Program-made: the position numbers and the translations under genes
From: Gammaproteobacteria bacterium
GTDB lineage: Bacteria > Pseudomonadota > Gammaproteobacteria > Pseudomonadales > Pseudohongiellaceae
Direction: 5' to 3'
DNA: 64,000 nt
NCBI GenBank assembly: GCA_029253585.1
Contig: JAQWZF010000002.1
Span: 124,001 to 188,000, forward strand
In this document: piece by piece, positions 5,950 to 26,256 of the stretch
How the letters are laid out: the number at the start of each line of letters is the position of its first letter
Position numbering within the stretch: the first letter of the stretch is position 1
Notes under the pieces: generated by a model
What the model was told of the DNA's origin: nothing
The model's database searches: none
The model's input: only the letters and a program-made list of their open reading frames with translations

Positions 5950-6522
5950 TTAGTAGGGGTAACCTTCAAGCCGCGGTTGCCCAGGCAGCCAGTCGGGAAC
6001 CTGCACCCAGTTGCTTCGATTCGGCATTTGAATCTTCGGCAGAGTCTTCTCGTTGAGCTCGGTGCCGTCTTCCACCACATCGTTCAGAAAAAACAGGTAG
6101 GCAGTCAGCGCGTACACCTCATCCGCGGTCAGAGTGCCTTCTGCACCGAGGGGCATGGCACGGTTGATAAAGTCCCATACTGTAGTTGCGTAGGGCGAGC
6201 GAATCGGGAGTACGCGGCCGTAATCCCAAGGATCTGCATTCGGCCCTGCGTCGCGTTTAATCAAGCGCGGCGCCATGCCACCACTGCCGGTTGTTCCGTG
6301 ACAACCGGCGCAGCCTTTTGAGAGGTACAGCTCCGACCCCATGTCTACCGAGCCACTGCCTGCTGGCAGTTCTTCGCCTCTAGGGCCTATGGCAATGTCC
6401 CAAAGACGTATTTCGTTCTCGGTGGGCGTTCTGCCAACACCGTAGGTGGGTGACTGCGCCTGCACGGAAATCATGCCTATGACCAGCAACGGTAGCAGCA
6501 GTAGAGCCCGCAGAGTCTTCAA
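5950..6522 (-). CDS. Monoheme cytochrome c, partner subunit of the sulfite dehydrogenase
   Basis: From the TTG at 6522 the product is 190 residues. It opens with a clean Sec signal peptide (MKTLRALLLLPLLVIG, cleavage near VQAQ) and carries one heme motif CAGCH (residues 71-75); MPNRSNW and a YPY terminus lie at the C-terminal end. It follows the SoxC-like gene directly and is the likely electron acceptor of the molybdenum subunit, as in SorAB/SoxCD pairs; SoxD proper is diheme and longer. TTG is preferred because GAGGG lies about 6 nt upstream and the signal peptide begins there. ATG codons at 6564 and 6579 would overlap soxC and add a hydrophilic extension. Confidence 0.85.
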   Translation of the reverse strand: MKTLRALLLLPLLVIGMISVQAQSPTYGVGRTPTENEIRLWDIAIGPRGEELPAGSGSVDMGSELYLSKGCAGCHGTTGSGGMAPRLIKRDAGPNADPWDYGRVLPIRSPYATTVWDFINRAMPLGAEGTLTADEVYALTAYLFFLNDVVEDGTELNEKTLPKIQMPNRSNWVQVPDWLPGQPRLEGYPY

Positions 6523-6550
6523 AGCAGTCCCTCGCTTATTAGTCGATGGC

Positions 6551-7816
6551 TTAGCTAATCGCATTGTGAACGCTCCCATCGCTAGCCACCCGCCAAGGCT
6601 GAATGGAATTGTCCTGACCTTTTACGAAGGTGGCGCGCTCGCCATCTGTGCTCCAGAAATCCAGAGCCTGCTGACGCGAGGGTTGTATCTGACCGATCTC
6701 ATCGATGCAGCGCGATTGCAGCTCGCACTCGGAGCCATCCCAGGTCCACTCGTAGCTAAAGCGCGTATGTGCCATCGGCTCGGCAGTGCCGCGAATGTCG
6801 GCATCAACCCAACTGCGACCGCCGTCGGTAGAAACTTCGACGCGGCTTACACGACCCCCACCAGACCAGGCTAAGCCGCCGATCTCGTAGAAGCCCGCAC
6901 CCGGTAGTTGCTGCCCGCCGGAGGGATAGGTGATAACCGATTTGGGGCCAATCTGATAACCCAGCGCGGCGTTCACCGGATCGCGGGTCAGGTGACCGAA
7001 GTCGTTGTAGGTCATGTAATACTCATCCACCACCTTGATGCGCCGCAGCCATTTCACGTTGAAGATGCCTTCGAAGCCAGGTGCCAGTAGTCGCAGTGGA
7101 AAGCCCTGTTGAGGACGTACCGGCTCGCCGTTCATGCCATAGCATAATAAGCAGTCGTCCATAGCCTTCGCCATGGGAATGCTGGACGCGCCTTTCACTT
7201 CCTCTACACCTTCCGCCACAACCCAGTCTGCATCGGCGTGTACGCCGGCTTCTTTCAATACCGTAGACAGCAGCACGCCAGTCCATTCGGCGTTGCTGGT
7301 CATGCCATGAGTTTCCTGAATAGTCGTGTGGCTGCTGCGGGAGCGATTGCCGGCGCACTCGATAAAATGCTTGCGCGTCACCGAGGGCATGCGCTTCAGG
7401 TCTTCCATACTAAACACAATGGGATTATCCACCATGCCGTGGACCATCAGCCTATGCTCGTCCGGGTCGATGTCCGGTACGAAGGAGCCGCGGGTAGTGC
7501 CCATATAATGGAGCGAGGAGGGGGTGATCTCACCCACCGAATCCTGCAGTGGTGTGGCGATATGGAAGTCGAGGCCAAAGGCATCGGGAGACTCGCGCCC
7601 GCCATGGGGAATACGCACCGAATTCACGAAGCGGGAACGGCTGCCATAGGCCGTCATTTCGTCAGAACCCCGGATAAAAGCCCCTGGCTCAGGCGCTACC
7701 GGTGTGTGTTCATGATCCTGGCCAAGAGCCGGCTTCGCCGCGCCCAGGCCCACAGCGCCCGCTACGGCGGCGCTACGCTTGAGGAATTCTCGTCTATCAG
7801 TCTTTTTTTGACTCAT
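6551..7816 (-). CDS. soxC: SoxC-like sulfite dehydrogenase, molybdopterin subunit
   Basis: 422 residues. The N-terminus is a Tat signal (DRREFLKRSAAVAGAVGLGA), so the folded Mo-cofactor protein is exported to the periplasm. The oxidoreductase molybdopterin domain holds the Mo-ligand cysteine in HFIECAGNRSR (Cys154). GFPLRLLAPGFEG and NVKWLRRI follow, then the Mo-co dimerisation domain (about residues 300-400) with RVEVSTDGGRSWVDA. This is the layout of sulfite oxidase/SoxC proteins, which oxidise sulfite (or sulfane bound to SoxY) and pass electrons to cytochrome c. The ATG at 7816 is preceded by AGGAGAG. The downstream cytochrome gene supports the role; no soxXYZAB genes are visible, so a stand-alone sulfite dehydrogenase is more likely than a full Sox system. 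Confidence 0.88.
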   Translation of the reverse strand: MSQKKTDRREFLKRSAAVAGAVGLGAAKPALGQDHEHTPVAPEPGAFIRGSDEMTAYGSRSRFVNSVRIPHGGRESPDAFGLDFHIATPLQDSVGEITPSSLHYMGTTRGSFVPDIDPDEHRLMVHGMVDNPIVFSMEDLKRMPSVTRKHFIECAGNRSRSSHTTIQETHGMTSNAEWTGVLLSTVLKEAGVHADADWVVAEGVEEVKGASSIPMAKAMDDCLLCYGMNGEPVRPQQGFPLRLLAPGFEGIFNVKWLRRIKVVDEYYMTYNDFGHLTRDPVNAALGYQIGPKSVITYPSGGQQLPGAGFYEIGGLAWSGGGRVSRVEVSTDGGRSWVDADIRGTAEPMAHTRFSYEWTWDGSECELQSRCIDEIGQIQPSRQQALDFWSTDGERATFVKGQDNSIQPWRVASDGSVHNAIS

Positions 7817-8239
7817 TATTCTCTCCTTGTTATTGCCTTCCATGGCAGTTTCAGATGAGGTTGAATGAGTGTCCCTCTAAGTTTGAGAAAAGTAAACGAG
7901 AATAGGACGCGGTGAGACGAAAATACTGGATTTATAGGCTCAAAAAGCACAAAGCCCCGGAGTCCTGCGGAGTTCATTTTCAGCTGTGCTTAGCTAGGCG
8001 TGTAATTAGTGAAAACAAGGCGGCTTGCTACTGGCGGCTGACTTAAGCAATGGGGCCTTTTCTTTTCTCCCGTTATAATGCGCAGACTATGTTTTCGGTC
8101 CTCCCAAGAGCTTGTCTTTATGCTATGTCCAGCAGTTGGCTTAATCCAATGTATGGGGTAGCCTTGCTCGAGTTTTTTGGAAGTGACGATTCACGCCTTC
8201 CACGAATGAATTCAAAATTACAAGAGAAGGGTGCAGATT
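7817..8239. other. Gene-free divergent intergenic region
   Basis: 423 bases between the divergent soxC-like and triple-CMD genes. Open frames here are short and lack family signals. A TATAAT hexamer lies at 8074-8079 on the plus strand but no convincing -35 is seen at the right distance. It must hold the promoters of both flanking genes. Confidence 0.5.
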
Positions 8240-9414: not shown

Positions 9415-10410
9415 CTATCGTGCGCTTTCTATGGCTCGCGCTTCTTGGGCTCTTGCGCCGCGCAGGATGTTGAGCAAGCCATAGTTTCCCTCGTGACAGC
9501 CATATTCATAGAGCAGTCCGTCCACCTTAGTCAGCAGTATGATGCCGGTTATCTTGTCCGTATAGGCCTGCGGATCGTCGACAGTAAACTCATAGGCTAT
9601 GGAGTCATCGCTTAGCCGTGTAAATCGCTCGATGAAAAACTTGGTGTCTTACGTTCCTCCCGCGCCGAATGACTGCGTCAGGCCATTAAAATTTCGGGAT
9701 TCAACAACCAGGGTCTCACCATCCCAGTAGCCACGAGAACCACCAGACCATAGGCCGATGCTGTCATCGAGAGCGCCGTGCCCATCCAAAGGCACGATGC
9801 GCGCGTCATGCACCATCTCATTCATGATGACTACATGGTCTCGGCTCTGAACGATCTGTAGGTTATTGTTGTAGAGGCTGGGACTAATAGGCGGGCCGGC
9901 ATTGAAGTCTACTATGCAGCGTTCGCCAAGCCCTCTGTCTTCCGGGCCGTCGCTACCGATACCGCCGCCGGTAAACCTTACCGGACGTTCGCCGTCGATA
10001 TCGGGGTCTAGTCGCCCCTGCACAACGACTGCTCCCTCGGCATAGGGCGGTAGCTGGCCATTTTTCGGGTAAACGATGATTGAGGTGCGCGCGACGTCTC
10101 CGATTCCTGCGGTTTCAACCCAGAAGTCGTTGTAGGCCTCGTTCACCCCGCCATTGGGAATCGCCGCGTCTGAAAAATCGTCGCGGGCAACTCTACGTGC
10201 CCGAATCTCGGCAACCTCTTCTTCGGTTAAAAATCCCCGCTCGCCATATTGTGCCGGCCTCTGCATGGGTATGTCTGAGGAGAAATTCCACACGCCTTGC
10301 AGACCCGGTTGATCCCACTCGGTTCTTGGAGCCTGATAATCTTCCGCTGACCATGCGCTAGTCCACAGCAGTAAGCTCGCGATTGCGGGTAGTAGAAGCC
10401 GTAGGTACAT
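9415..10410 (-). pseudogene. Secreted protein of unknown function, family copy 2, interrupted by in-frame TAA
   Basis: The open part (9649-10410) encodes a signal peptide (LLLPAIASLLLWTSAWSAED) and the N-terminal three quarters of the family described at 1632. It shows GLQGVW, RTSIIVYPKNGQLPP, GERCIVDF, LYNNNLQIVQS, VHDARIVPLDG and GETLVVESRNFNG. TAA (9649-9651) then interrupts it. In the same frame the remaining conserved end is present: FIERFTRLSDDSIAYEFTVD, then LLYEYGCHEGNYG, ending at TAG (9415-9417). Only this one codon is wrong, so decay is recent, or the base is a sequencing error. The truncated product would lack the conserved CHEGN motif. Confidence 0.75.
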
Positions 10411-13937: not shown

Positions 13938-16346
13938 TTATGTCGTGTTCGTCTGCAAGGGCTTGTGGGATTGTGGTCTGCCGCTAGCTGCATTGACGAT
14001 CATGTCGGCGGTAACCGGCACGCGATTGAAAGTATGTCCGCCTAGCGCATCGGAGATGGCGCAGAGTAAAGCAGCAGCGGCGCAGCCCAGAATTGGCTCG
14101 CCTATGCCTTTAGCGCCAACCGGATTTTCCGGGTCGGCCTTGTCGATGGCAGCCCAGCTCATATCGGTAGCTGCATCGAGGAAGGTTGGCGGCTTGGCCT
14201 GATATAAACCGGTGTTAGCCGGCAGGCCGTTCTGCGGGTCGTAGGCATGGCGCTCGAATCCGGCCATACCAAAACCCATGAAGGCGGCGCTCTTAATTTG
14301 GTTGCCCAAACCCAACGGATGCAATACGGTGCCGCAGTCGGCAACGCCCACGTAATCGAGGATGTCATATTTGCCGGTTTCAGTATCCAGTGCAATCTGT
14401 ACGAAACCCGCAGCCAGTGCCGGCACTGTCCCATCTTTTTCCAGGTTGTCCTTCGCCACGCCTATCAGTCCGGTGCCAGCCAGCGCCGCAACTGAATTGC
14501 GCGTCATTGAGTTAATGTCCTCCGGTGCTATTTGGCCGCTATACTTGCCGCCTATCTCAACGGCGCGTGACGCTGCCGCCGCGTAACTAATGGATACGGT
14601 AGGATCACTCTTAAGAAATACCTTCTCTTCACCGATGTCGTAGTCGGCGGGTGAGCCTCCCAGATCCAGCGCGGCGATTTCCAGCAATTTCTCCAGAGCA
14701 TCCATGGCGGCAACGTAATTGGTGCGGGTCATGGTGAATGAGGTATTGCTGCCAAACTGTCCCAGGTTCCAGGGTAGATGACGACGACTATCGCCGCGCT
14801 CGACTACACAGTTCTCCCAGTTACACTTCAGAATCTCGGCCGCCACCCTCGAGGTAGCGGTATGGGAATAGGTCCCCAGATTGCCGACTCCGGTATGGAT
14901 ATGCAGCTTGCCTTGCGGCGAGATTCGCACCAGGCCATCGAAGCCATTGCTGCCGGCGGAGTGATAGGCCTGCCCGACGCCGACGCCGATGATCTTGTTA
15001 CCTATGCGTTGTCCGCTCAGCCTGCTCTTCTCCTGCCAGCCAAATTGTTCCGCACCCTTTGCCAGTGCCTCGGGCAGGTGTGCACTGGTGAGAGAGCTTT
15101 GGCTGCGGCCGTAGTGGTCGTCACTCTCCGGGGCGTTGATGCTGCGGATCGTCAGGCGATCTATGCCTAACGCCCTGGCGGCCTTGTCCAGTAGGGGCTC
15201 TATAGCGGCGTGAACCTGATTCTGTCCCGGGCCGCGCTGTGCGCCCTTGGAGGGAGTATTGGTGAACACGGGTATTCCCCGGAAGCGCATGGCTAGCGGT
15301 TGATACACCAGAGAGACTGCGTCTCCGGCAGACAGCCAGTCAGAGAAGCCCGCATTGGCGCCATTGTCCTGGACGATATACAGATCGGCCGCGGTGATGC
15401 GACCGTCTTCGCGGAAGCCCATTTTTATATGGCCCTGAAAACCGTGTCGCGCCGAACCTATGTAGTACTCTTCCTCGCGGCTAATGCGCAGCATGACCGG
15501 CTGACCGATCAGGCGTGACATATGTGCAGGAATAGACATGCTCGGATAGGCGCCGCCCTTGGAACCGAAGCCGCCACCACAGAACTCGGCCACGAACACC
15601 AGATCTTCCGGAGCGATACCGATGTAGGCGGCGAGGCCGGGCACCGGGAAACTCTGGCTCTGACTCGAGCCGTAGACGAAGCACTTGCCGTTTTCCCAGT
15701 AGGAAAGCACCGATCGAGGCTCCATGGACAAGTGGGAGTGACTGGCGGTTACAAAGCTTTCATCGATGACGAAGGCGGCATCGTCGAAGCCCGATTCAAG
15801 ATCGCCCACGCTCCATTCGACGGCAGCTTCCCCCTGGGGCAGGGTGTTCTCGCCAGCCGCAGCAAATTCGTCGTCGCTCCACTTGATGGAGCGTATACCC
15901 TCTCTTATGGATGAGTTGCCCACATTTCCCTGCGTGCGGGCATCGGGCCCGTCGGCGCGCAGGCTGGTCAGTGGGTCTACGGTAAAGGGCAGTGGTTCGA
16001 ACTCGAAGGTGATGGCCGCGATGGCATCTTCGGCAGTTTTCTCATCTACCGCGGCAACCGCCAGGATAGGATCGCCCACATAGGCAGGCTCGTTGGTCAG
16101 AATATGATTTGCAACACCCTCGGTGCTGGGCACGTCGTCGGCGGTAAGTACGGCTACAACGCCTTCCATGCGTAGCGCCGCACTAGTATCGATGCGCCGA
16201 ATTCGCGCATGGGGAACCGGGCTGGTGAGCAGGCGCGCATAGAGCATGCCCTCCGCCTTGAAATCCTCCGCGTATTTGGCTTTGCCTGTTACCTTGCCGT
16301 GTACATCCGGTGGCGTAAAATTCTTACCGATGAGTGAATAGGCCAT
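13938..16346 (-). CDS. Molybdenum hydroxylase (xanthine dehydrogenase/aldehyde oxidase family) large subunit, without partners
   Basis: 802 residues. The N-terminal a/b-hammerhead domain begins GKVTGKAKYAEDF and contains ARLLTSPVPHARIRRID. The molybdopterin-binding part shows FCGGGFGSKGGAY, TPSKGAQRGPGQNQ, and near the C-terminus VGAKGIGEPILGCAAAAL, whose Glu is the conserved catalytic base. Such subunits (XdhB/CoxL class) hydroxylate aldehydes or N-heterocycles and normally work with a 2Fe-2S subunit and often a FAD subunit. Neither is encoded next to it, and the neighbouring PQQ dehydrogenase is separated by 254 bases. There is no obvious signal peptide. The substrate is unknown; its electron-transfer partner must lie elsewhere. 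Confidence 0.88.
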   Translation of the reverse strand: MAYSLIGKNFTPPDVHGKVTGKAKYAEDFKAEGMLYARLLTSPVPHARIRRIDTSAALRMEGVVAVLTADDVPSTEGVANHILTNEPAYVGDPILAVAAVDEKTAEDAIAAITFEFEPLPFTVDPLTSLRADGPDARTQGNVGNSSIREGIRSIKWSDDEFAAAGENTLPQGEAAVEWSVGDLESGFDDAAFVIDESFVTASHSHLSMEPRSVLSYWENGKCFVYGSSQSQSFPVPGLAAYIGIAPEDLVFVAEFCGGGFGSKGGAYPSMSIPAHMSRLIGQPVMLRISREEEYYIGSARHGFQGHIKMGFREDGRITAADLYIVQDNGANAGFSDWLSAGDAVSLVYQPLAMRFRGIPVFTNTPSKGAQRGPGQNQVHAAIEPLLDKAARALGIDRLTIRSINAPESDDHYGRSQSSLTSAHLPEALAKGAEQFGWQEKSRLSGQRIGNKIIGVGVGQAYHSAGSNGFDGLVRISPQGKLHIHTGVGNLGTYSHTATSRVAAEILKCNWENCVVERGDSRRHLPWNLGQFGSNTSFTMTRTNYVAAMDALEKLLEIAALDLGGSPADYDIGEEKVFLKSDPTVSISYAAAASRAVEIGGKYSGQIAPEDINSMTRNSVAALAGTGLIGVAKDNLEKDGTVPALAAGFVQIALDTETGKYDILDYVGVADCGTVLHPLGLGNQIKSAAFMGFGMAGFERHAYDPQNGLPANTGLYQAKPPTFLDAATDMSWAAIDKADPENPVGAKGIGEPILGCAAAALLCAISDALGGHTFNRVPVTADMIVNAASGRPQSHKPLQTNTT

Positions 16347-16600: not shown

Positions 16601-18664
16601 CTACAGTTTAAAAGCAAGTAACTCACCTGAATAGCCGGAGCCACTCACAGCCAATACCAGGTACTGCTCGCCATCAAGCATAAAGGTCATTGGAGAGCCG
16701 GTCTGCGGTGCTGGCAGTTTCAAGGCGCCGACTTCTTCGCCATTACTTTTGTTATATGCTCTCAAGAAGGCTCGGCGCTCACCTTCATCGCCCGTTGTCA
16801 TTTCTGCTTCGCCTGCGATCAGCAATGTCTTGGTGACCAGGGTGCCAACGGAAGCGCTCTGCCCGGTGCGGGGAATATCGAGAGAGGCAAGAGCCGGATG
16901 GTTCGCGACTCTGTCAGGCGTTTGGCCATGGGCAATCTGCCAGGCGAGGGTGCCATCACGCAAATCTAGCGCGCTTATTTTTCCATAGGGAGGCTTCTGC
17001 AGGGGCAGGCGATCAACCAGTATGCCCCTTGGTGGCGTGCCCCGAGTGGAGACGGGTGCCTGTCGCTGTTGTGCTTGGAATTCTGATCTGCCACCACCCG
17101 CAGATGAACCGGCGCCACCGGAGGTGCGTGGTCCGGTGATGGGGTTACCCTGTATATAGGCCATATCCGATTGGCCCCGATAGGGCGGTACCAGACTGAG
17201 GGCGCCTAATGAGCTATTGCTGGATACGTAGAGTATGCCTGTCTCCGGATCAAGCGAGCCCCCCGGCCAATTGGTCCCACCTGCGGCGGCTGGCGCCATT
17301 AGTATGCCCAGTGGGCCATTGATGTCTCCCACCACAGGGGGTGTAAATAGTGGCCCCAGTTTATACCAACTGGCGAGCTCCAATCCTTTAGCGCGTAGAG
17401 CCGGCGTAAAATCGATAAGGTCGTCGGTGGTGACACCTTGTCGGTCATAGGCTGGTGGCTGGGTAGGGAAGGGCTGGGTAGGGGAGTACCATTCGCCGGG
17501 CACGTCGCCAATCTCTACCGAGCGTTCCTCTATAGGCCAGATAGGCTCTCCGGTAATGCGGTCAAACACATAGAGAAAAGCCTGCTTGGTGGGCTGAGCC
17601 ACTATTTTTCGCATTTGGCCGGCGATCATCACATCGGCAAGTATGGGAGCACTGGAAATATCCTGATCCCAGATGCCGTGGTGCACTAACTGATAATGCC
17701 ATTTACGTTCCCCGGTGTTTAAATCGACAGCGACTAGGGATTCGGCGAACAGATTATTTCCCGGCCGGTAGGCGCCGTAATAATCGCCGGTAGCGGCTTC
17801 CACTGGCAGATAGACTGTCTCTAACTCAGGATCTACGGAAATCTGCGCCCACACACCCGTGTTGCCGGTATAACTGGCGGAATCTCCCTCCCAGGATTCG
17901 AAACCGTATTCTCCTCGCTGCGGAATGGTGTGGAATACCCAGAGCCTTTCTCCGGTACGCACGTTGAACGCACGTACGAAGCCTTTAACGTTTTCCCGGC
18001 TGCGGGGGTTGCCTCCGGTGCGATGTGCCGCCCCGACAATGACCACATCCTTGGCGATGATGGGTGTGGAATGCAGGCCTATATCGGCGGTCTCCAGATC
18101 GATGTTCTGATCGAGGTTCTGCTTAAGATCGACGACACCATCGATTCCAAAATCGAGCGCCGGCAGCCCAGTGTCTGCGTCCAGGGCGATCAATCTATAG
18201 CCGGGGGTGACATACAATATCCTCGACTCGCTGCCGTCCTGCCAATAGGCCAGGCCGCGGCCGGAAAGCTGACGCGGTGCATTCTCCCCGCGCACTCCCT
18301 CTTCATAGCGAAACATCCACAGCAGCTCGCCGGTTGCGGCATCCAGGGCAACAACCGAGCGCCGCGATCCCGCGGTGCTGAATAGCTTGCCGCCCACCAT
18401 TAGCGGAGTTGATTGGAAGCGGTATTCGGGTGACGGCCCCAGATTATCGGTCTTGAAGCGCCATGCCACTTCCAGTTGATCGAAATTGGTAGCGTCGATC
18501 TGCTGCAGCGGCGCATAGCGTGTGTGGCCGAGACCGCCGCCGTAACTGGGCCATTCTCCGGCAATAGCGCCCTGCTGTGCGGACAGTATGGGGGCTAGAC
18601 AAATGGCGAAGCCCAGAGTAAAAAAGGGGAATAAAAAAGCAGATATGCGGCGAAATAGACTCAT
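16601..18664 (-). CDS. Exported PQQ-dependent dehydrogenase (quinoprotein glucose/alcohol dehydrogenase family)
   Basis: 687 residues. A signal peptide (AFLFPFFTLGFAICLAPILSA) precedes an eight-bladed quinoprotein propeller that starts EWPSYGGGLGHTRYAPL. Repeated W-docking type motifs follow: VVALDAATGELLWMF, FVRAFNVRTGERLWVF, AVDLNTGERKWHYQL and YVFDRITGEPIWPIEER. There is no heme-binding CxxCH, so electrons would go to a separate cytochrome or to ubiquinone. It resembles the soluble part of membrane glucose dehydrogenases, without the TM anchor. The substrate is unknown. The ATG at 18664 is chosen because the signal peptide begins there (MSLFRRIS); 18712 would add 16 hydrophilic residues. 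It is divergent from the operon at 18790. Confidence 0.87.
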   Translation of the reverse strand: MSLFRRISAFLFPFFTLGFAICLAPILSAQQGAIAGEWPSYGGGLGHTRYAPLQQIDATNFDQLEVAWRFKTDNLGPSPEYRFQSTPLMVGGKLFSTAGSRRSVVALDAATGELLWMFRYEEGVRGENAPRQLSGRGLAYWQDGSESRILYVTPGYRLIALDADTGLPALDFGIDGVVDLKQNLDQNIDLETADIGLHSTPIIAKDVVIVGAAHRTGGNPRSRENVKGFVRAFNVRTGERLWVFHTIPQRGEYGFESWEGDSASYTGNTGVWAQISVDPELETVYLPVEAATGDYYGAYRPGNNLFAESLVAVDLNTGERKWHYQLVHHGIWDQDISSAPILADVMIAGQMRKIVAQPTKQAFLYVFDRITGEPIWPIEERSVEIGDVPGEWYSPTQPFPTQPPAYDRQGVTTDDLIDFTPALRAKGLELASWYKLGPLFTPPVVGDINGPLGILMAPAAAGGTNWPGGSLDPETGILYVSSNSSLGALSLVPPYRGQSDMAYIQGNPITGPRTSGGAGSSAGGGRSEFQAQQRQAPVSTRGTPPRGILVDRLPLQKPPYGKISALDLRDGTLAWQIAHGQTPDRVANHPALASLDIPRTGQSASVGTLVTKTLLIAGEAEMTTGDEGERRAFLRAYNKSNGEEVGALKLPAPQTGSPMTFMLDGEQYLVLAVSGSGYSGELLAFKL

Positions 18665-18789
18665 TATATGCACCCGAATATTTTTCGGAGAGTCTAGCAT
18701 AGCCCGCGACAAGCAGAATGATTTTCGCTATGCTCCAAGCTCGTAAGAGTGTTCAATAATAAGAAAGCCATAGGATACCTCTGCGCATC

Positions 18790-19632
18790 ATGTCTAGACG
18801 ACTCGTACTTTTCGCTGCATTTTTATCTCTATTCCTGAGCGTGGGTGCGCACGCCCAACAGATAGAGCTATCCAATCAAATCTGGTCTGCCGAAGTGATT
18901 CGCACGAAGGGACAACCGGTCATTCCACTTTTCGATGGCTGGTTTCCTAACGAAGATGGCAGCCGCACAATCTGCTTTGGTTTTTTCAATATGAATACCC
19001 AGGAAGCTCTTAACATCCCCCTGGGTGAGAACAATTACCTCGAGACAGATTATCCGGGGCTGGATCTGGCTGGCGTTATGCTGCCCACACATTTCGATCC
19101 CTTGCCGCCTCGGTATCGTCATGTCTTCTGTGCCTTCAGCATTAACGTGCCAGCAGGTTTTGACGCTGGAAACAGAATCACCTGGCATCTGAACAGCAAT
19201 CGGCAAGAACTGGATGTGCCCGGCAAGGTGATCGCACCCTATGTGCTGGACGAGCCAAACTCCGATGGTCGTGGTGACATTGCACCCTTGGTTAGACTTG
19301 GCGATTCCCGGCAAGCCGTTAGAGGGCGAGCCGGCATTCAATATCCACAGGTTATACAGTCGAAAGTGGATGAACTCATTACCCTGAGCGCGCACATCGA
19401 ACACCCTGATGACGAAGTCTGGGTAGGTTGGTCTCACCATAGTGGACCAGGAAACGTAGAATTTACTAACAAAGAATATATGCACGACAGTGGCTCTAGC
19501 ACTTCAGTAGAGCTACGTATCAGCGAACCGGGCGAGTATGTGATACGAATGCAAACTATTGATGATATTGCCGCATTCGAATTCTATTGCTGTCATACCA
19601 ATGCCTATTTTTCAATACACGTAGATGACTGA
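18790..19632 (+). CDS. Secreted protein of unknown function, first gene of the PHM/PAL-like operon
   Basis: 280 residues with a Sec signal peptide (LVLFAAFLSLFLSVGAHAQ). I do not recognise a named family. The C-terminal 90 residues (SKVDELITLSAHIEHPDD up to YFSIHVDD) read like a beta-sandwich/Ig-like domain. Notable residues are SHHSG around 215 and a Cys-Cys-His (FYCCHTNAYF) close to the C-terminus, a possible metal or heme-associated site. The gene is 29 nt upstream of the cytochrome-copper protein gene on the same strand, and the four genes to 25000 are tightly packed, so it is probably part of the same exported system. Confidence 0.75.
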   Translation: MSRRLVLFAAFLSLFLSVGAHAQQIELSNQIWSAEVIRTKGQPVIPLFDGWFPNEDGSRTICFGFFNMNTQEALNIPLGENNYLETDYPGLDLAGVMLPTHFDPLPPRYRHVFCAFSINVPAGFDAGNRITWHLNSNRQELDVPGKVIAPYVLDEPNSDGRGDIAPLVRLGDSRQAVRGRAGIQYPQVIQSKVDELITLSAHIEHPDDEVWVGWSHHSGPGNVEFTNKEYMHDSGSSTSVELRISEPGEYVIRMQTIDDIAAFEFYCCHTNAYFSIHVDD

Positions 19633-19661
19633 AGAGCCAGCAGCTCCAGGGATTCAACATT

Positions 19662-20990
19662 ATGATATTTACTCTTCGATTAAAAACCATCGTGACAATG
19701 GCAACTTTGGCGGCGGCCAACACCGTTCTTGCGCAGGAAGCGCCAAACTATTCACGAGATGTGGCGCCGATACTGCAGGCTAAATGCGCTTCCTGCCATA
19801 ACCCGGAAGGCATTGGCCCAATGCCTCTGCTTACCTATGAGCAGGTGCGCCCCTTCGCCCTGCTTATCAAGGATAGAACCAGTAAGCGCATCATGCCGCC
19901 GTGGCACCTGGATCCGACGGTAGGTATTCAAGAATTCAAGAACGATATGTCGCTCACCGAAGAGCAAATAGACACCATTGGCGCCTGGGCAGACGCCGGT
20001 GCGCCCGAGGGTGACCGCGCAGATTTACCCGTACCGCTGGAAATTGCTACCGGTGGCGCGTGGCAGTTAGAAGACCAGATGGGTCCGCCGGATTTAATTA
20101 TTCGTTCCAAGCCCTACGACGTAATTGCCAACGGTCAGGATCAGTGGTGGATGCCAGACGTGCCTTTTGATGGTCTGGATACGGAGCGTTGGTTGCGCGC
20201 CGCAGAATTCAAACCCTCCTATCCGCTGGGCAAGAAAGTGGTGCACCATGGCCATGCCGTGCTGGTTCCGGAAAACCCGGAGCAAGGGGATCGTCGTTCC
20301 GTAGCCTTGGCACGTTATGGGGTAGGAAAGTCCTGGGAAATCTATCCCGAGGGTACGGGAATGCGTGTGCCGACCAATGGCCATATAGCCTGGAATCTGC
20401 ATTACTTCCCCGTAGGCGTAGGGGGCTCGGGTGATGTCGTCGAGGTAGGCCTGTGGTTTTACCCTGAGGGTGAGAGACCCGAGTTAGAAACAGCGGGTGA
20501 GGCGATGTTTCGTGTCGATGGTCTCAACGGCATGGCCAGAGGTCAGGACATTGTCATTCCACCGCACGGGTATCAGGTTTTGCAGGGCACTCACGTGCTT
20601 GACTCCCCGGCTATCATCCACAGCTATCGACCCCATATGCATATGCGTGGCAGAGTCATGACCATGGAAGCGATCTATCCCGATGGCCGTAAGGAGGTGT
20701 TGAGTCAGGTAGACAAGTACAACCATAACTGGCAGATATCTTATATCTATGCGGATGATTCCAAGCCTATCCTGCCCAAGGGAACGGTGTTGCAGTTCTC
20801 CTCGGTATTCGACAATACGGCTAACAATCCGATCAATCCGGATCCGGAGCAGTGGGTGGTGTTCGGCAGGCGCGGTGTGGATGAGATGAACCATGCCTGG
20901 CTTGGCATGACCTATATAAACGAAGAACAATACGGCAGTGCCATCGCCGAGCGGCGCGCTCGCCAGGAAACTTTGCGTGTGAGTCAGTAG
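19662..20990 (+). CDS. Heme c domain fused to a PHM-like dicopper monooxygenase domain
   Basis: 442 residues. A signal peptide (to about residue 24) is followed by a cytochrome c-like domain with CASCH (42-46) and a possible axial Met in IMPPWH (78). The C-terminal 250 residues carry the ligand order of copper type II, ascorbate-dependent monooxygenases. His195-His196 in VVHHGH and His247 in LHYF correspond to the CuH set. His325/His327 in PHMHMRG and Met409 in DEMNHAW correspond to the CuM set (rat PHM: H107, H108, H172, H242, H244, M314). KYNHNWQ and FDNTANNPINPDP are also characteristic. PHM and DBH hydroxylate C-H bonds using copper, oxygen and a one-electron donor; the fused heme could supply electrons in place of ascorbate (inference). 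The substrate is unknown. Confidence 0.82.
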   Translation: MIFTLRLKTIVTMATLAAANTVLAQEAPNYSRDVAPILQAKCASCHNPEGIGPMPLLTYEQVRPFALLIKDRTSKRIMPPWHLDPTVGIQEFKNDMSLTEEQIDTIGAWADAGAPEGDRADLPVPLEIATGGAWQLEDQMGPPDLIIRSKPYDVIANGQDQWWMPDVPFDGLDTERWLRAAEFKPSYPLGKKVVHHGHAVLVPENPEQGDRRSVALARYGVGKSWEIYPEGTGMRVPTNGHIAWNLHYFPVGVGGSGDVVEVGLWFYPEGERPELETAGEAMFRVDGLNGMARGQDIVIPPHGYQVLQGTHVLDSPAIIHSYRPHMHMRGRVMTMEAIYPDGRKEVLSQVDKYNHNWQISYIYADDSKPILPKGTVLQFSSVFDNTANNPINPDPEQWVVFGRRGVDEMNHAWLGMTYINEEQYGSAIAERRARQETLRVSQ

Positions 20991-21011
20991 CGTATGAAGA
21001 GGCAGTAGACC

Positions 21012-23210
21012 ATGAGAGAACAGTGCTCCAAAATAAAGCTGCCACAGTTGCTGGCGCTTGCCTGCCTGCTCGCATCAGGGCCGACTCTCGCGCAGGAATT
21101 GCAACAAGCCAACTATGAAACGGCCCAGGCAGATCGGGGCGAATTAGTCTACCAACAAAACTGTGCGGCCTGTCACCTTGCAGACCTATCGGGTTCTTTC
21201 GAGGCGCCTAACCTCGCCGATAATAGTTTTCGTAGTAACTGGTCTAATAGAGGCATGCAAGAATTTCTGGATATGCTACGACGGACCATGCCTCCGCAGG
21301 CACCCGGTTCACTCAGCGAGTCGCAGTATCAGGATGTCTCTGCTTTTTTGCTGAGTGCCAACGATATTCCAGCTGGCAGCACAATGACCTTAACGGCAGC
21401 CAATGTGGTGGTGTTTCTCAATAGCGATGTGAGCGCAGTAGCAAGTGGCGTGCAACGCACACCAGTGCCCGGGCGTGCTGGCACCGTGCCTTCGCCTCAC
21501 ACCCGCAACGCTGTGCCCGAGATCGCCTCCGTCTATTCCAGTGACCGAGCGCTGAGCCGTAGTTACACAGGCATTAACAATAGCGCCATGGATAAATTCC
21601 GCAATGTCAGCAGCGAAGAGCTGGCTAATCCGGCAGCTGCAGATTGGACTTACTGGCGACGCAGCCCCCAGAGTCAGGGCTACACCCCGCTGGATCAGAT
21701 CACCACCGAGAATGTAAGTTCGCTCAGCCTCGCCTGGGTGTGGGGGATGGAAGCAGGGCGCAGCCAACCGGCACCACTGGTGCGTGACGGCATCATCTTC
21801 ATTCCTAATTTCGGTAATGTCGTTCAGGCGCTGGATGGCCGTGACGGTTCGCTGCTATGGGAATACCGCCGTCAGTTCCCGGAAGGAGGCCGCAGCGGAG
21901 GCCTGTTGCGCACCCTGGCAATGTGGGAAGACATGATATTTGTTGCGACTACCGATGCGCATCTGGTGGCTCTCGATGCACGCACTGGCGCGGTACGCTG
22001 GGACAGCGAGATTGCCGATGAGGCGCTGGGCTATTCCAATACCAGCGGGCCAATCGTCGCCGATGGTGTAGTGATAAATGGTATCACCGGCTGTGGTCGT
22101 TTCTTCGAACAAAGTTGTTTCATCACCGGTCACGATGCCAGCACCGGCGAGGAATTGTGGAAAACCTTTACCATCGCACAACCCGGAGAAGCGGGAGGCG
22201 ACACCTGGGGTGATCTGCCTCTGGAGTTTCGCGGTGGCGGCGATGTATGGATTACCGGTAGTTGGGACCCTGAGCTGGGCTTGGTGTTCTTCGGCGTAGC
22301 GCAGGCCAAACCCTGGATGGCGGCGAGTCGTGGGCTCACCACCGAGGACAGCGCCCTGTATTCGAACTCAACCCTGGCCATAGATCCTAAGGATGGGCGT
22401 ATCGTGTGGCATCGCCAACACGTGCCCGGCGAATCCCTGGATATGGATGAGGCCTTCGAGCAGGTGCTGATCGATCTGGTGGACGAGCCCTATCTTTTCA
22501 CCATCGGCAAGAGTGGTATTCTGTGGAAACTCGACCGCCGCACAGGTGAGTTCATGGGCCTGAGGGAAACCGTATTCCAGAATGTGTTCTCAGACATCAA
22601 TCTGGAAACCGGAGAGGTGCGTTATCGTGAGGACATTCGTAATATGCAAGTGGGAGAATGGCTGAGTGTTTGCCCCTCCACCGCTGGCGGTCATAACTGG
22701 CAGTCTACGGGTTATCATCCGCCCACTCGAAATTTTGTCATTCCTCTCAGTCAGTCCTGCATGGAAATGTCACCACGGGAAGTTACTTTCGAAGTTGGCT
22801 CCGGCGGTAATCAGGGAGACAGACGCTGGATGGAGATGCCCAACACTGAAGGACAGTTCGGAAAACTATCTGCTTTTGACGTCGATTCTATGGAAGAGAG
22901 TTGGAGCATAGAACAGCGTGCGCCATTTCTTACGGCCGCGCTAACAACCGCCGGCGGACTGGTGTTTATCGGTGATTACGACAGGTATGTTCATGCCTAT
23001 GATGTGGAAACAGGTGAGGAGCTGTGGCGCAGTCGTCTCGCCACCTCGGCACAGGGATTTCCCGTAAGCTTCGCCATCGATGGTGAGCAGTACATCGCTA
23101 TTCCCGCCGGTCGCGATGGCGGCAGCCCCTGGCGCATAGGCAGCTTTCTGGCACCGGAGTTGGTCAGCCCAACGGGTCACAACGCACTCTACGTATTCAA
23201 GCTCAACTAA
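21012..23210 (+). CDS. Exported cytochrome c-PQQ dehydrogenase fusion
   Basis: 732 residues. A signal peptide ends near residue 28. The N-terminal cytochrome c domain has CAACH (51-55). From about residue 215 (DWTYWRRSPQSQGYTPL) an eight-bladed quinoprotein propeller follows with repeats such as VQALDGRDGSLLWEY, VALDARTGAVRWDSE and AYDVETGEELW. The cysteines in GCGRFFEQSCF could form a disulfide near the active site. Quinohemoprotein alcohol dehydrogenases usually carry heme at the C-terminus; here it is at the N-terminus. It is 21 nt downstream of the copper protein, and its stop overlaps the next start (TAATG), so translation of the two is coupled. The substrate is unknown, but an alcohol or hydroxylated product of the upstream enzyme is plausible. 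Confidence 0.87.
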   Translation: MREQCSKIKLPQLLALACLLASGPTLAQELQQANYETAQADRGELVYQQNCAACHLADLSGSFEAPNLADNSFRSNWSNRGMQEFLDMLRRTMPPQAPGSLSESQYQDVSAFLLSANDIPAGSTMTLTAANVVVFLNSDVSAVASGVQRTPVPGRAGTVPSPHTRNAVPEIASVYSSDRALSRSYTGINNSAMDKFRNVSSEELANPAAADWTYWRRSPQSQGYTPLDQITTENVSSLSLAWVWGMEAGRSQPAPLVRDGIIFIPNFGNVVQALDGRDGSLLWEYRRQFPEGGRSGGLLRTLAMWEDMIFVATTDAHLVALDARTGAVRWDSEIADEALGYSNTSGPIVADGVVINGITGCGRFFEQSCFITGHDASTGEELWKTFTIAQPGEAGGDTWGDLPLEFRGGGDVWITGSWDPELGLVFFGVAQAKPWMAASRGLTTEDSALYSNSTLAIDPKDGRIVWHRQHVPGESLDMDEAFEQVLIDLVDEPYLFTIGKSGILWKLDRRTGEFMGLRETVFQNVFSDINLETGEVRYREDIRNMQVGEWLSVCPSTAGGHNWQSTGYHPPTRNFVIPLSQSCMEMSPREVTFEVGSGGNQGDRRWMEMPNTEGQFGKLSAFDVDSMEESWSIEQRAPFLTAALTTAGGLVFIGDYDRYVHAYDVETGEELWRSRLATSAQGFPVSFAIDGEQYIAIPAGRDGGSPWRIGSFLAPELVSPTGHNALYVFKLN

Positions 23211-25000
23211 TGCATCTTTGCTGCTTCCCCAAGCTCAACCGAGAGTGCCTGGCGGCACTTATTTTCTGCCTGGTTGCCCAGGCTCAAGCCGACACGATCC
23301 CTGCTGGAAAGGGCGACATTGTCATCACGCCGCTAGTCCATTCAAGCGTACAGCTGCAATATCAAGGCATGGTTGTTCTGATAGACCCCTGGAGCGCCAT
23401 AAGCATGAGCAACTACCAGATAGCCGATCTGATATTGGTGACTGACAATCCCGGTCATCACCTCGACACAGCCGCCATCGATGCGCTCAGCGACGAAGAT
23501 ACAATTCTCATAGCGCCTGCAAACAGCGCCGGCCAACTATCCGATGCCGTTATTATGGGCAGCGGCGATAGCAGGCGAGTATCAGGGATCGAAGCGGAAG
23601 TATTGGTGGAGGTAATCGATGCCTATGATCTGACGCCGGGTGCGCCAGCGCACCCCAAGGGGGATGCTAATGGCTATGTGTTAACCGTCGGCGGCAAGCG
23701 CCTGCTGTTTGCGGGAGTGACAGAATGCGTAGACGATCTGATGACACTAGGCAACATCGATGTGGCATTTATGCCATTGAACATTCCGCCGGCACGAATG
23801 ACGCCGGCAGACTCGGCTGCGTGCACAAGACAGATCGACCCAGATATCGTCTACACCTACCACTATGATCAGGGTTATGCGCGCAGGATAAATGACCTGG
23901 ACCATGAGGGAAGCTCTTTACCCGGTGGCCTAAGCGTGGATGAAACTATGGGTGCTTTCGCGAATGCGCTAGAGGGCAGCGGAATCGAATACCGCCAGAG
24001 CAACTGGTACCCGCCTCGATTCGAGCTCGACAGCAACTGGCCCAGGCTGCCCCTAGGACAGCGCTGGCTCACCGGCGGCCTGGGCGGCATGTGTATTGGT
24101 CGCAATGATGAGGTGTTCCTGCTTAACAGACAGAACGTAGTAGAGGATGACCTGGACGCGGCCTTGCGGGCGCCACCCATTGTGCAGCTTGATACTGAGG
24201 GAAATACCGTAAAAGGCTGGGGAGATGCGAGTCTCATAGGCGACAGGTTGCACGACTGTCATGCCAATGCCGATGGATCACTGTGGTTGGTGCCTGCAGC
24301 AACGGGGCACATACAATTGTGGTCAGCTAATGAAGAGCTACTAATGCAGATTGGCGAGGCCAATGTATTCGACTCCAGTGACGAGAGCCGTAGTGGTCAG
24401 CCGAGGAATTCTGACAGGGCGCAGTTTTTTCTTCCTGCCGCCGTAGATGTAGACGAGAGCACGGGAGAGATTTTCGTGGCCGATGGCGAACTGCCCGGTG
24501 GCAACAGTCGTATCGCCGTTTTTGATTCCTCCGGGGCATTTCTGCGTCAATGGAGGCTACAGCGAGATGGGAATGATCAACGCATCGAACTGCCCCATTG
24601 TCTGCGCGTATCCAACGATGGCCTGGTGTACGTCTGCGATCGTCGCGCCGATCGCATTCAGGTGTTCGACAGGGCAGGAAACCTGCAGAGGAATATCCCA
24701 CTGTCATTCACCGCACTTACTGATGCTAGCGACCGGGTTAGTGGTATTAGAGGGAATGCAGTAGTGCTCGCTTTCTCCCCCGATCCGGAGCAAGAATTTC
24801 TGTATGTGCTAAATCAAAATACCGTCGCGGTGGAAGTGTTAGAGAGAGCTAGTGGAGACTGGCTCACTCGTTTCGGTGAAGGGCCCGGCAGATATCCAGG
24901 CCAATTTGAGCTTCCCCATGGCATTGCAGTGGATAGTAAGGGCAATGTCTATGTGGCGGAGCAGGAAGGTAGGCGTGTGCAACGGTTCTTGCTTCGGTAG
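23210..25000 (+). CDS. Degenerate metallo-beta-lactamase domain fused to a PAL-like NHL propeller
   Basis: 596 residues with a signal peptide. Residues about 35-265 follow the MBL-fold UlaG-like group (LVHSSVQLQYQGMVVLIDPW, DLILVT, IDVAFMPLNIP, VYTYHY). The metal motif usually reads HxHxDH, or TDxHGDHLD in related proteins. Here it is TDNPGHHLD (78-86), and the later GDTE is GVTE (169-172), so metal binding is probably lost. Residues about 285-596 form an NHL beta-propeller resembling peptidyl-hydroxyglycine amidating lyase: LHDCHANADGSLWL, GEIFVADGELPGGNSRI, LPHCLRVSNDGLVYVCDR and LPHGIAVDSKGNVYVAE. His348/351, His463 and His570 are spaced about like the three zinc-binding His of PAL. Start ATG overlaps the upstream stop. 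Confidence 0.8.
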   Translation: MHLCCFPKLNRECLAALIFCLVAQAQADTIPAGKGDIVITPLVHSSVQLQYQGMVVLIDPWSAISMSNYQIADLILVTDNPGHHLDTAAIDALSDEDTILIAPANSAGQLSDAVIMGSGDSRRVSGIEAEVLVEVIDAYDLTPGAPAHPKGDANGYVLTVGGKRLLFAGVTECVDDLMTLGNIDVAFMPLNIPPARMTPADSAACTRQIDPDIVYTYHYDQGYARRINDLDHEGSSLPGGLSVDETMGAFANALEGSGIEYRQSNWYPPRFELDSNWPRLPLGQRWLTGGLGGMCIGRNDEVFLLNRQNVVEDDLDAALRAPPIVQLDTEGNTVKGWGDASLIGDRLHDCHANADGSLWLVPAATGHIQLWSANEELLMQIGEANVFDSSDESRSGQPRNSDRAQFFLPAAVDVDESTGEIFVADGELPGGNSRIAVFDSSGAFLRQWRLQRDGNDQRIELPHCLRVSNDGLVYVCDRRADRIQVFDRAGNLQRNIPLSFTALTDASDRVSGIRGNAVVLAFSPDPEQEFLYVLNQNTVAVEVLERASGDWLTRFGEGPGRYPGQFELPHGIAVDSKGNVYVAEQEGRRVQRFLLR

Positions 25001-25182: not shown

Positions 25183-26256
25183 ATGCGAGCAAAGTTACAT
25201 CGCGCTTTCTCATACTCTGTTCTAATACTATTAGCTTTGAACTTGATAACTGCTGCACAGACGACACTGGCGCAGCAGCCAGATCTTAGCAGCGTCAAAA
25301 TAACAAGGCTCTTAGACCGACCACTCATCGGGCCGGATATCCATCCTAGTGTAGGAGTGAATATTCAGGGGCCCTCGCTAATACGAGTGCCGGATTGGGT
25401 TGAGAATCCTCTCGGTCGCTACTACCTCTATTTCGCAGATCACAAGGGTCTGTATATCCGGCTCGCCTATGCAGACAATTTAACCGGACCCTGGCAAATA
25501 CACCAGCCTGGAAGTCTGCCTATAGAGGATTCCTATTTTTCGGTAAGCAGGCCAGAAATTTCACAACAACGCTTGGATGAGTTAGTTGCAGCCAGAGAAG
25601 CATCTGGCGTTGCCTACTCCCACAATTTCGAATTAGAGCTAACCGAACCGCATATCGCCTCTCCCGACGTTCACGTCGACGAGGCGAGCAGAACTATCAT
25701 CATGTATTACCACGGCCTCCAAGACGCCGGTAGGCAACACTCGCGAGTAGCGACCTCCAGCGATGGCATAAACTTTGTCGCAAAAGAAGAGGACTTGGGA
25801 CGCACCTATATGCGCGCGTTCAAGCACGAGGACATGACTTATGTGCTCGCTATGCCGGGTCAGTTCTATCGCTCAGTAGATGGATTTAGTAATTTCGAAA
25901 CAGGACCTCGTCTATTCGCTTCCAATATGCGCCATTCTGCTGTGATCGTTCGCGACAATAACTTGTATGTGTTCTGGACAAGAGTGGGTGATGTCCCTGA
26001 AAGCATTCTGCTAAGCAGTATTGATATTCGAGATGACTGGACGCAGTGGCAAGAGTCCGATGAGCGAATAGTGTTGCGACCGGAATACGATTGGGAAGGT
26101 GCCAATGCGCCACTGGAGCCTTCTATGCGAAGCACAGCCTATGGACACGTTAACCAACTTCGGGATCCCGCTTTGTTTGTTGAGGACGGTGTAGTCTATT
26201 TACTGTATGTCGTTGCCGGAGAGAGTGGCATCGCGCTTGCCCGAATAGATTTTTAG
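25183..26256 (+). CDS. Exported five-bladed-propeller (GH43-like) protein
   Basis: 357 residues with a signal peptide (SVLILLALNLITAAQTTLAQQ). The body looks like a glycosidase-type five-bladed propeller: GPSLIRVPDWVENPLGRYYL, YFADHKGLYIRLAYAD and LTGPW. SPDVHVDEASRTIIMYYHG, then YRSVDGFSNFE and RDPALFVEDGVVYLLYVVAG follow. GPW, the D-V-H-V-D blade and RDP.LF resemble GH43/GH32-like folds, but I do not see a secure acid-base triad, so enzymatic activity is unproven. AAGAGG lies 7 nt before the ATG. It is separated by 182 nt from the PHM/PAL-like operon, and may or may not belong to it. Confidence 0.7.
   Translation: MRAKLHRAFSYSVLILLALNLITAAQTTLAQQPDLSSVKITRLLDRPLIGPDIHPSVGVNIQGPSLIRVPDWVENPLGRYYLYFADHKGLYIRLAYADNLTGPWQIHQPGSLPIEDSYFSVSRPEISQQRLDELVAAREASGVAYSHNFELELTEPHIASPDVHVDEASRTIIMYYHGLQDAGRQHSRVATSSDGINFVAKEEDLGRTYMRAFKHEDMTYVLAMPGQFYRSVDGFSNFETGPRLFASNMRHSAVIVRDNNLYVFWTRVGDVPESILLSSIDIRDDWTQWQESDERIVLRPEYDWEGANAPLEPSMRSTAYGHVNQLRDPALFVEDGVVYLLYVVAGESGIALARIDF

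Follow-up and report, generated by a model that had tools for sequence, protein, structure and literature searches.

Why would a bacterium fuse a c-type heme domain to a dicopper monooxygenase domain and place the gene beside one for a quinoprotein-type dehydrogenase? The question is raised by four genes, here called A to D (Table 1), in a 64,000-nucleotide stretch of DNA (the window) from a gammaproteobacterium of the family Pseudohongiellaceae (GenBank assembly GCA_029253585.1, contig JAQWZF010000002.1, positions 124,001 to 188,000). Most known examples of peptidylglycine alpha-hydroxylating monooxygenase (PHM) and dopamine beta-hydroxylase (DBH), enzymes that run with ascorbate, come from animals and some algae. 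An original prediction, made from the letters of the window, had read B as a heme-fused relative of PHM and D as carrying a propeller like that of PAL, the lyase that works with PHM in peptide amidation, and had treated the four genes as one operon. We consider it probable that A, B, and C form a periplasmic, ascorbate-independent C–H hydroxylase module, wherein B would be fed via its own heme and C would oxidize the product, donate electrons, or both. The kind of copper protein is already known, as family PF03712 holds the copper domain; what appears to be new is the arrangement.

We propose that B hydroxylates an unactivated or heteroatom-adjacent C–H bond of a small substrate at its CuM site, with the cytochrome c domain of the same protein, and not ascorbate, delivering two electrons to the copper sites. 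The product of gene C, a quinoprotein-type enzyme with a c-heme of its own, would oxidize the alcohol so formed to a carbonyl, or else act on a co-substrate, and could return electrons heme-to-heme to B. Hydroxylation and dehydrogenation would be coupled because C would pass electrons back to B. Protein A would serve B as a dedicated accessory subunit, its task most likely being assembly or the loading of copper. At loci that have D or a separate PAL-like propeller, this protein would split a carbinolamine or hemiacetal product, which would amount to oxidative dealkylation. This proposal draws on the six invariant, PHM-aligned ligands, PHM/DBH fold, and invariant heme site of B, on the constant neighborhood and heme motif of C, on the pairing of A with B, on the clustering of PAL-like genes near B-type genes, and on published precedents for the electron path. 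Judged from sequence, both the replacement of ascorbate by heme and the hydroxylase-then-dehydrogenase route, which the original prediction had also raised, are plausible.

The case for B begins with its ligands. When 30 family members, 20 own-genome copies, and rat PHM are aligned together with MAFFT, the copper ligands of PHM (H107, H108, H172, H242, H244, and M314) share columns with H195, H196, H247, H325, H327, and M409 of B, which are exactly the residues named from the letters. The 30 members are gene B and 29 of 36 B-type stretches, five near-identical stretches and two broken-frame pieces being excluded, and B stands in both sets. All six ligands are invariant in the 30 members. Among the 20 own-genome copies, gene B included, the CuH ligands (H195, H196, and H247 columns) are kept throughout, and the CuM ligands (H325, H327, and M409 columns), like the full set of six, are kept in 18. 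Two long copies (L048:9569-11305 and L052:7931-9616, given as locus number and positions) have Arg and Asn in place of the CuM His pair, and thus noncatalytic B-type members may exist. The c-heme site, whose fusion to the copper domain had likewise been recognized earlier, comprises C42, C45, and H46 of a CxxCH motif together with M78, all invariant in 30 of 30.

The predicted fold points the same way. An AlphaFold model of B (predicted local distance difference test score, pLDDT, 79.6; predicted template modeling score, pTM, 0.72) was searched with Foldseek against solved structures, and ranks 1–31 are all PHM or DBH (E values 4.8e-12 to 2.9e-9; target TM-scores 0.37–0.60; identity 14–17%). 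In contrast, PDB sequence searches with B, whether by single sequence or by profile, did not retrieve PHM, and PF03712 reaches 16.9 bits on B, under the Pfam cut-off of 23. What ties B to PHM is the Foldseek result together with the joint alignment. Ligands and predicted fold both support the assignment of B as a PHM/DBH-type dicopper protein, one that differs from PHM and DBH in its fused c-heme, its low identity, its PF03712 score, and two residues of the PHM peptide site discussed below. A plasmid search with B gave no match.

Gene C has the heme and pyrroloquinoline quinone (PQQ)-family modules expected of it, matching PF01011 at 214.3 bits (cut-off 26.7) and PF13442 at 47.9 bits. Its CxxCH heme motif (C51, C54, and H55) is invariant in all 24 aligned C proteins. 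The best solved-structure match is the alcohol dehydrogenase 4cvb (E 5.7e-106). C shares the propeller domain of the PQQ-dependent alcohol dehydrogenases (the 4cvb group; TIGR03075), but its heme is N-terminal.

Precedents for the proposed electron path come from lytic polysaccharide monooxygenases (LPMOs), which have a different fold and mononuclear copper. One report describes a PQQ-dependent, cytochrome-bearing pyranose dehydrogenase that drives an LPMO, with the cytochrome domain required and the reactions strongly coupled (PMC5960967), and in another the copper of a bacterial LPMO is reduced by a c-type cytochrome domain, which can take the place of ascorbate (PMC8981238). As in those systems, cytochrome-borne electrons would drive an exported copper monooxygenase in the A-B-C module, whereas in B a single protein carries both the heme and a PHM-type dicopper domain.

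The original prediction had proposed looking for what co-occurs with gene A, and the regular partner proves to be B. In the source genome, all nine A-type proteins (11 match rows) have a B-type gene no more than 2 kb away, and the same holds for 54 of 56 A-type matches (1.5 expected) across six further genomes of the genus. These six were chosen for few contigs after their B-type counts were known, each has at least 17 B-type matches, and 18 further genus genomes lie outside the clustering counts. Gene A has no Pfam or NCBIfam match, and its profile finds nothing significant in the PDB. Its AlphaFold model has two beta domains (pLDDT 82.1; pTM 0.50), and a fold search with that model returned only generic Ig/MSP/PapD-like folds among the 50 matches listed. 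C267, C268, and N271 are invariant in all 24 aligned A proteins, which are gene A and 23 of 35 A-type stretches.

The conserved core is A-B-C. A scan of genome contigs gave 38 loci, 23 of which have a B ortholog at 73% identity or more (L009–L030 and L032); the nearest relatives of B (99–73% identity) belong to Pseudomonadales, Gammaproteobacteria, Proteobacteria, or Pseudohongiella sp. records. A lies directly upstream of B in all 23 (with its frame broken in L029), and C directly downstream in all 22 that can be assessed, the contig of L015 ending too early. A divergent PQQ-family gene lies upstream in 21 of the 23, set off by ~1 kb in one of them (L024) and by 3.3 kb in another (L027); it was not found in the 2.4 kb of upstream sequence present in L023 or the ~6 kb present in L028. 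The four-gene operon of the original prediction, however, is rejected as a conserved unit, because fused D follows C in only 8 of the 22 assessable loci (L009–L014, L016, and L017). A separate PAL-like propeller lies downstream in L021 and L029, and L019, L026, and L032 have a stand-alone metallo-beta-lactamase-like homolog on the far side of the divergent PQQ gene. Twelve of the 22 A-B-C loci have no PAL-like propeller, fused or separate, in the stretch retrieved; in L019 and L030 only ~1.5 kb of sequence follows C.

Several points weigh against the proposed module. The model of B was built on a shallow alignment of 30 sequences. C scores 369.5 bits with TIGR03075, under the cut-off of 480.05, and a pqqC search found no match in the same genome, and none in control genomes either. 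Six Gemmatimonadota loci keep the A-B pair, with B at 40–46% identity, and in five of these a C relative adjoining A-B is absent; in L039 a C relative is divergent, beside A. Noted separately, in the Gemmatimonadota locus L037 two A-like stretches sit between a pair of B-type genes.

What D might contribute is a separate matter. The original prediction overlooked a metallo-beta-lactamase-fold domain at residues 39–217 (PF13483, 35.9 bits, cut-off 24; PDB 3kl7, E 2e-31). Its metal motif is degenerate, TDNPGHHLD, and all seven metallo-beta-lactamase-like sequences viewed (four fused and three separate) have the TD...HH-D form and lack HxHxDH, which we take to be the metal motif of hydrolases with this fold. 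In the propeller that follows, which has an NHL match in Pfam, R307, H348, H463, R478, and H570 align with R533, H585, H690, R706, and H786 of rat PAL. Of these PAL residues, we take the three histidines to be zinc ligands and the two arginines to have roles in the site, and we likewise take PAL Tyr654 to be catalytic and Asp787 to be a calcium ligand. The four histidines listed in the original prediction (H348, H351, H463, and H570) are correctly positioned, and H348, H463, and H570 fall on the zinc columns, but the equivalent of H585 is H348 and not H351. E427 stands in place of Tyr654 and G571 in place of Asp787, and both substitutions count against a PAL-type lyase.

Profile comparisons also divide. 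With a propeller profile built without PAL, Thin (2.9e-54) and three TRIM71 sequences outrank PAL (2.9e-39, rank 5), and with the D propeller alone PAL ranks 16 of 40 (2.2e-13 versus 7.8e-22 for Thin); both rankings speak against the PAL assignment. Counted in its favor, the PAL match is a single stretch covering profile positions 51–352 of 353, whereas the Thin and TRIM71 matches consist of several shorter stretches, the longest TRIM71 stretch listed being 162–349. Thus, the PAL-like propeller of the original prediction holds for five site residues, while D lacks the Tyr and the calcium Asp, lies nearer generic NHL proteins by whole-protein score, and differs from PAL in its fused metallo-beta-lactamase-fold domain.

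The propeller might also be no enzyme at all. B could carry out a DBH-like hydroxylation of a carbon skeleton (an aromatic side chain, terpenoid, or lipid) followed by dehydrogenation, with the D propeller serving only for binding or as a scaffold. This alternative survives best, and might be correct even though we would not bet on it: the A-B-C core is conserved without D, the metallo-beta-lactamase motif is degenerate, whole-protein scores favor generic NHL proteins, and DBH is among the fold matches of B. Against it, all seven fused D proteins aligned (of nine seen) retain the five residues of the PAL site, an observation of little weight because these proteins are 71–93% identical to gene D. 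A stronger objection comes from 22 bacterial propellers, 13 of them in D or near B genes and nine from the source genome with over 5 kb separating them from the nearest B gene. Most are much more distant, and yet the columns of PAL H585, H690, and R706 are kept in all 22 and that of R533 in 21.

The remaining columns of the site vary among these 22 propellers. The H786 column holds His in 11 and Glu in 11, a difference from PAL at the third zinc ligand, and the column of the catalytic Tyr holds Tyr in six, His in 12, Glu in two, and Leu in two. The Tyr-bearing propellers (L021:10530, two in L031, and one each in L038, L047, and L063) are all separate genes near B genes at other loci. Given how these two columns split, at least two kinds of propeller exist, one PAL-like and the other with a switched site. 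In 11 of the 22, Glu replaces the third zinc His and His replaces the Tyr, namely in L021:11787-12878, those of L064, L066, L067, and L068, and six further own-genome propellers; a switched metal site is possible in these, as judged from their residues.

If the PAL-like site is functional, B could instead serve small-molecule oxidative N- or O-dealkylation, by hydroxylating next to N or O, with the propeller splitting the carbinolamine or hemiacetal and C oxidizing the released aldehyde or alcohol. In addition to the site residues, this option finds support in gene clustering. In the six other genus genomes, 8, 26, and 31 of 98 PAL-like matches lie within 2, 5, and 10 kb of a B-type match (2.5, 5.0, and 8.8 expected), and in the same genome 3, 7, and 8 of 16 do (0.4, 0.9, and 1.5 expected). 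The p-values for this clustering, and for that of the A-type matches above, are too small, because the expectations assume independent matches, which orthologous loci of related genomes are not, because the PAL-like profile was built partly from B-gene neighbors, because 5 kb is the strongest of three distances examined, and because of how the genomes were chosen. Enzymatic splitting of an oxygenase-made hemiaminal has a precedent in the unrelated MgdH/MgdL pair, also a bacterial oxygenase with a dedicated hemiaminal lyase (the role proposed here for the propeller); MgdH is a 2-oxoglutarate dioxygenase, unlike B, and MgdL has no sequence homology to PAL (PMC12508155). However, only 10 of the 22 A-B-C loci have a PAL-like propeller in the stretch retrieved, eight in fused D and two as a separate gene, and the PAL Tyr is replaced in D. 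We regard dealkylation as somewhat unlikely to be the function of the locus.

Peptide amidation is the parallel drawn in the original prediction, wherein B would make alpha-hydroxyglycine-type carbinolamines from peptides and D would cleave them, as animal PHM and PAL do. The PHM-type site of B, the five PAL-site equivalents in D, the enrichment of PAL-like matches near B-type matches, and the Tyr present in six of 22 propellers would suit such a split system. We take R240, N316, and Y318 of PHM to bind the glycine-extended peptide. The R240 column is R323 in B (Arg in 22 of 30 family members), but that of N316 is H411 (His in 27 of 30) and that of Y318 is W413 (Trp in 24 of 30), and as judged from these two columns peptidylglycine is an unlikely substrate. 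With E427 and G571 in D as well, and with 14 of 22 assessable orthologous loci having no fused D directly downstream, the amidation parallel is not supported; we do not treat it as a leading candidate and rate it as improbable. Equally doubtful is the view that B senses or stores copper or transfers electrons and is not a monooxygenase, which can draw on the two own-genome copies where Arg and Asn replace the CuM His pair but must contend with six intact ligands in the other 18 and in all 30 family members.

Returning to the A-B-C hydroxylase module, its B component is multiplied in this lineage. At E 1e-3 the source genome gives 21 B-type matches, one of them to the heme region only, and thus 20 B-type proteins; at E 1e-5 it gives 18 PAL-like rows, of which the final two are weak pieces at a single place, leaving 16 strong propellers. 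Each of the 25 genus genomes searched has 9–25 B-type matches (E 1e-20), some of them fragments, and none of 13 genomes from other families of the order has any at this threshold; NHL repeats were found in one of these 13. Among 274 genomes drawn from the class, with few candidates scored per genome, B-type matches occur in four (E 1e-20) and PAL-like matches in four (E 1e-40), the source genome being counted in the draw and in both sets.

Some own-genome B-type copies depart from the layout of gene B. Eight longer proteins (562–617 aa; loci L047–L050, L052, and L053) have an extra domain N-terminal to the heme and dicopper domains, and the one scanned (L052:7931-9616) has an AhpC/TSA match under the cut-off. 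A 625-aa protein (L067:9180-11054) has no CxxCH and all six copper ligands.

We speculate, with less assurance than for the module itself, that the Pseudohongiella-like lineage uses PHM-type chemistry as a main periplasmic catabolic toolkit. Its 9–25 heme-fused dicopper proteins per genome would be hydroxylases, many with a two-domain Cys-Cys partner and some wired to quinoheme dehydrogenases such that product oxidation pays for the next O2 activation, and a family of PAL-like propellers, part of it with a changed set of metal ligands, would act in parallel as lyases. With a heme fused to the dicopper domain, the electron route to and across the two copper sites could be tested via a built-in reporter, and such bacterial forms would offer a large new set of exported candidate C–H hydroxylases. 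Moreover, PHM-like and PAL-like genes that travel together in bacteria would bear on the origin of peptide amidation. Among the best-matching open-licence PMC papers, none describing this system was listed. PMC6313938 has no occurrence of "bacteri" or "PHM," and the four places shown for "bacteri" in PMC5461114 concern bacteria fed to planarians and a reference.

The gene positions and the overlap of the C stop with the D start, as given in the original prediction, are exact, and all four open reading frames are on the forward strand. The A-B and B-C spacers are 29 and 21 bases, and the TAA of C and the ATG of D share one base. By reading, the N termini of A, B, C, and D look like secretion signals.

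Table 1. Positions in the window of genes A to D and of the divergent upstream neighbor of A-B-C
Feature	Position	Strand	Description
Gene A	18790-19632	+	Exported 280-aa protein; two predicted beta domains; invariant C267-C268 near the C terminus
Gene B	19662-20990	+	Signal peptide (by reading); mono-heme c domain; PHM/DBH-type dicopper domain (~145-420)
Gene C	21012-23210	+	N-terminal c-heme and PQQ-family dehydrogenase propeller
Gene D	23210-25000	+	UlaG/UPF0173-like metallo-beta-lactamase-fold domain and PAL-like NHL propeller (from ~residue 263)
Divergent PQQ-family dehydrogenase	16601-18712	-	PF01011, 590.9 bits; upstream neighbor of A-B-C

Some other genes of the window have relatives near B-type genes. 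An exported protein 3′ of D (25183-26256), with DUF4874 and GH43 matches only under the cut-offs, has a 52% identical paralog at L068:6403-7395 that adjoins an own-genome cluster of B, PAL-like, and PQQ genes. A secreted-looking family represented at 9652-10410 recurs in L049, L050, L053, L062, L064, and L067, which with the window make up 7 of the 15 B-gene regions of the source genome and hold eight members in all; Pfam gave no match for the single member scanned, and the recurrence near B may reflect simple abundance in the genome. The region 5950-7843 encodes what we take, by reading, to be a SorA-type sulfite dehydrogenase exported by the twin-arginine translocation system, with a small CxxCH protein as its neighbor. 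Finally, a protein near the operon that reads as xanthine-dehydrogenase-like (13938-16346) is 54% identical to one at L038:4359-6794, which directly adjoins the B-A pair of that locus.

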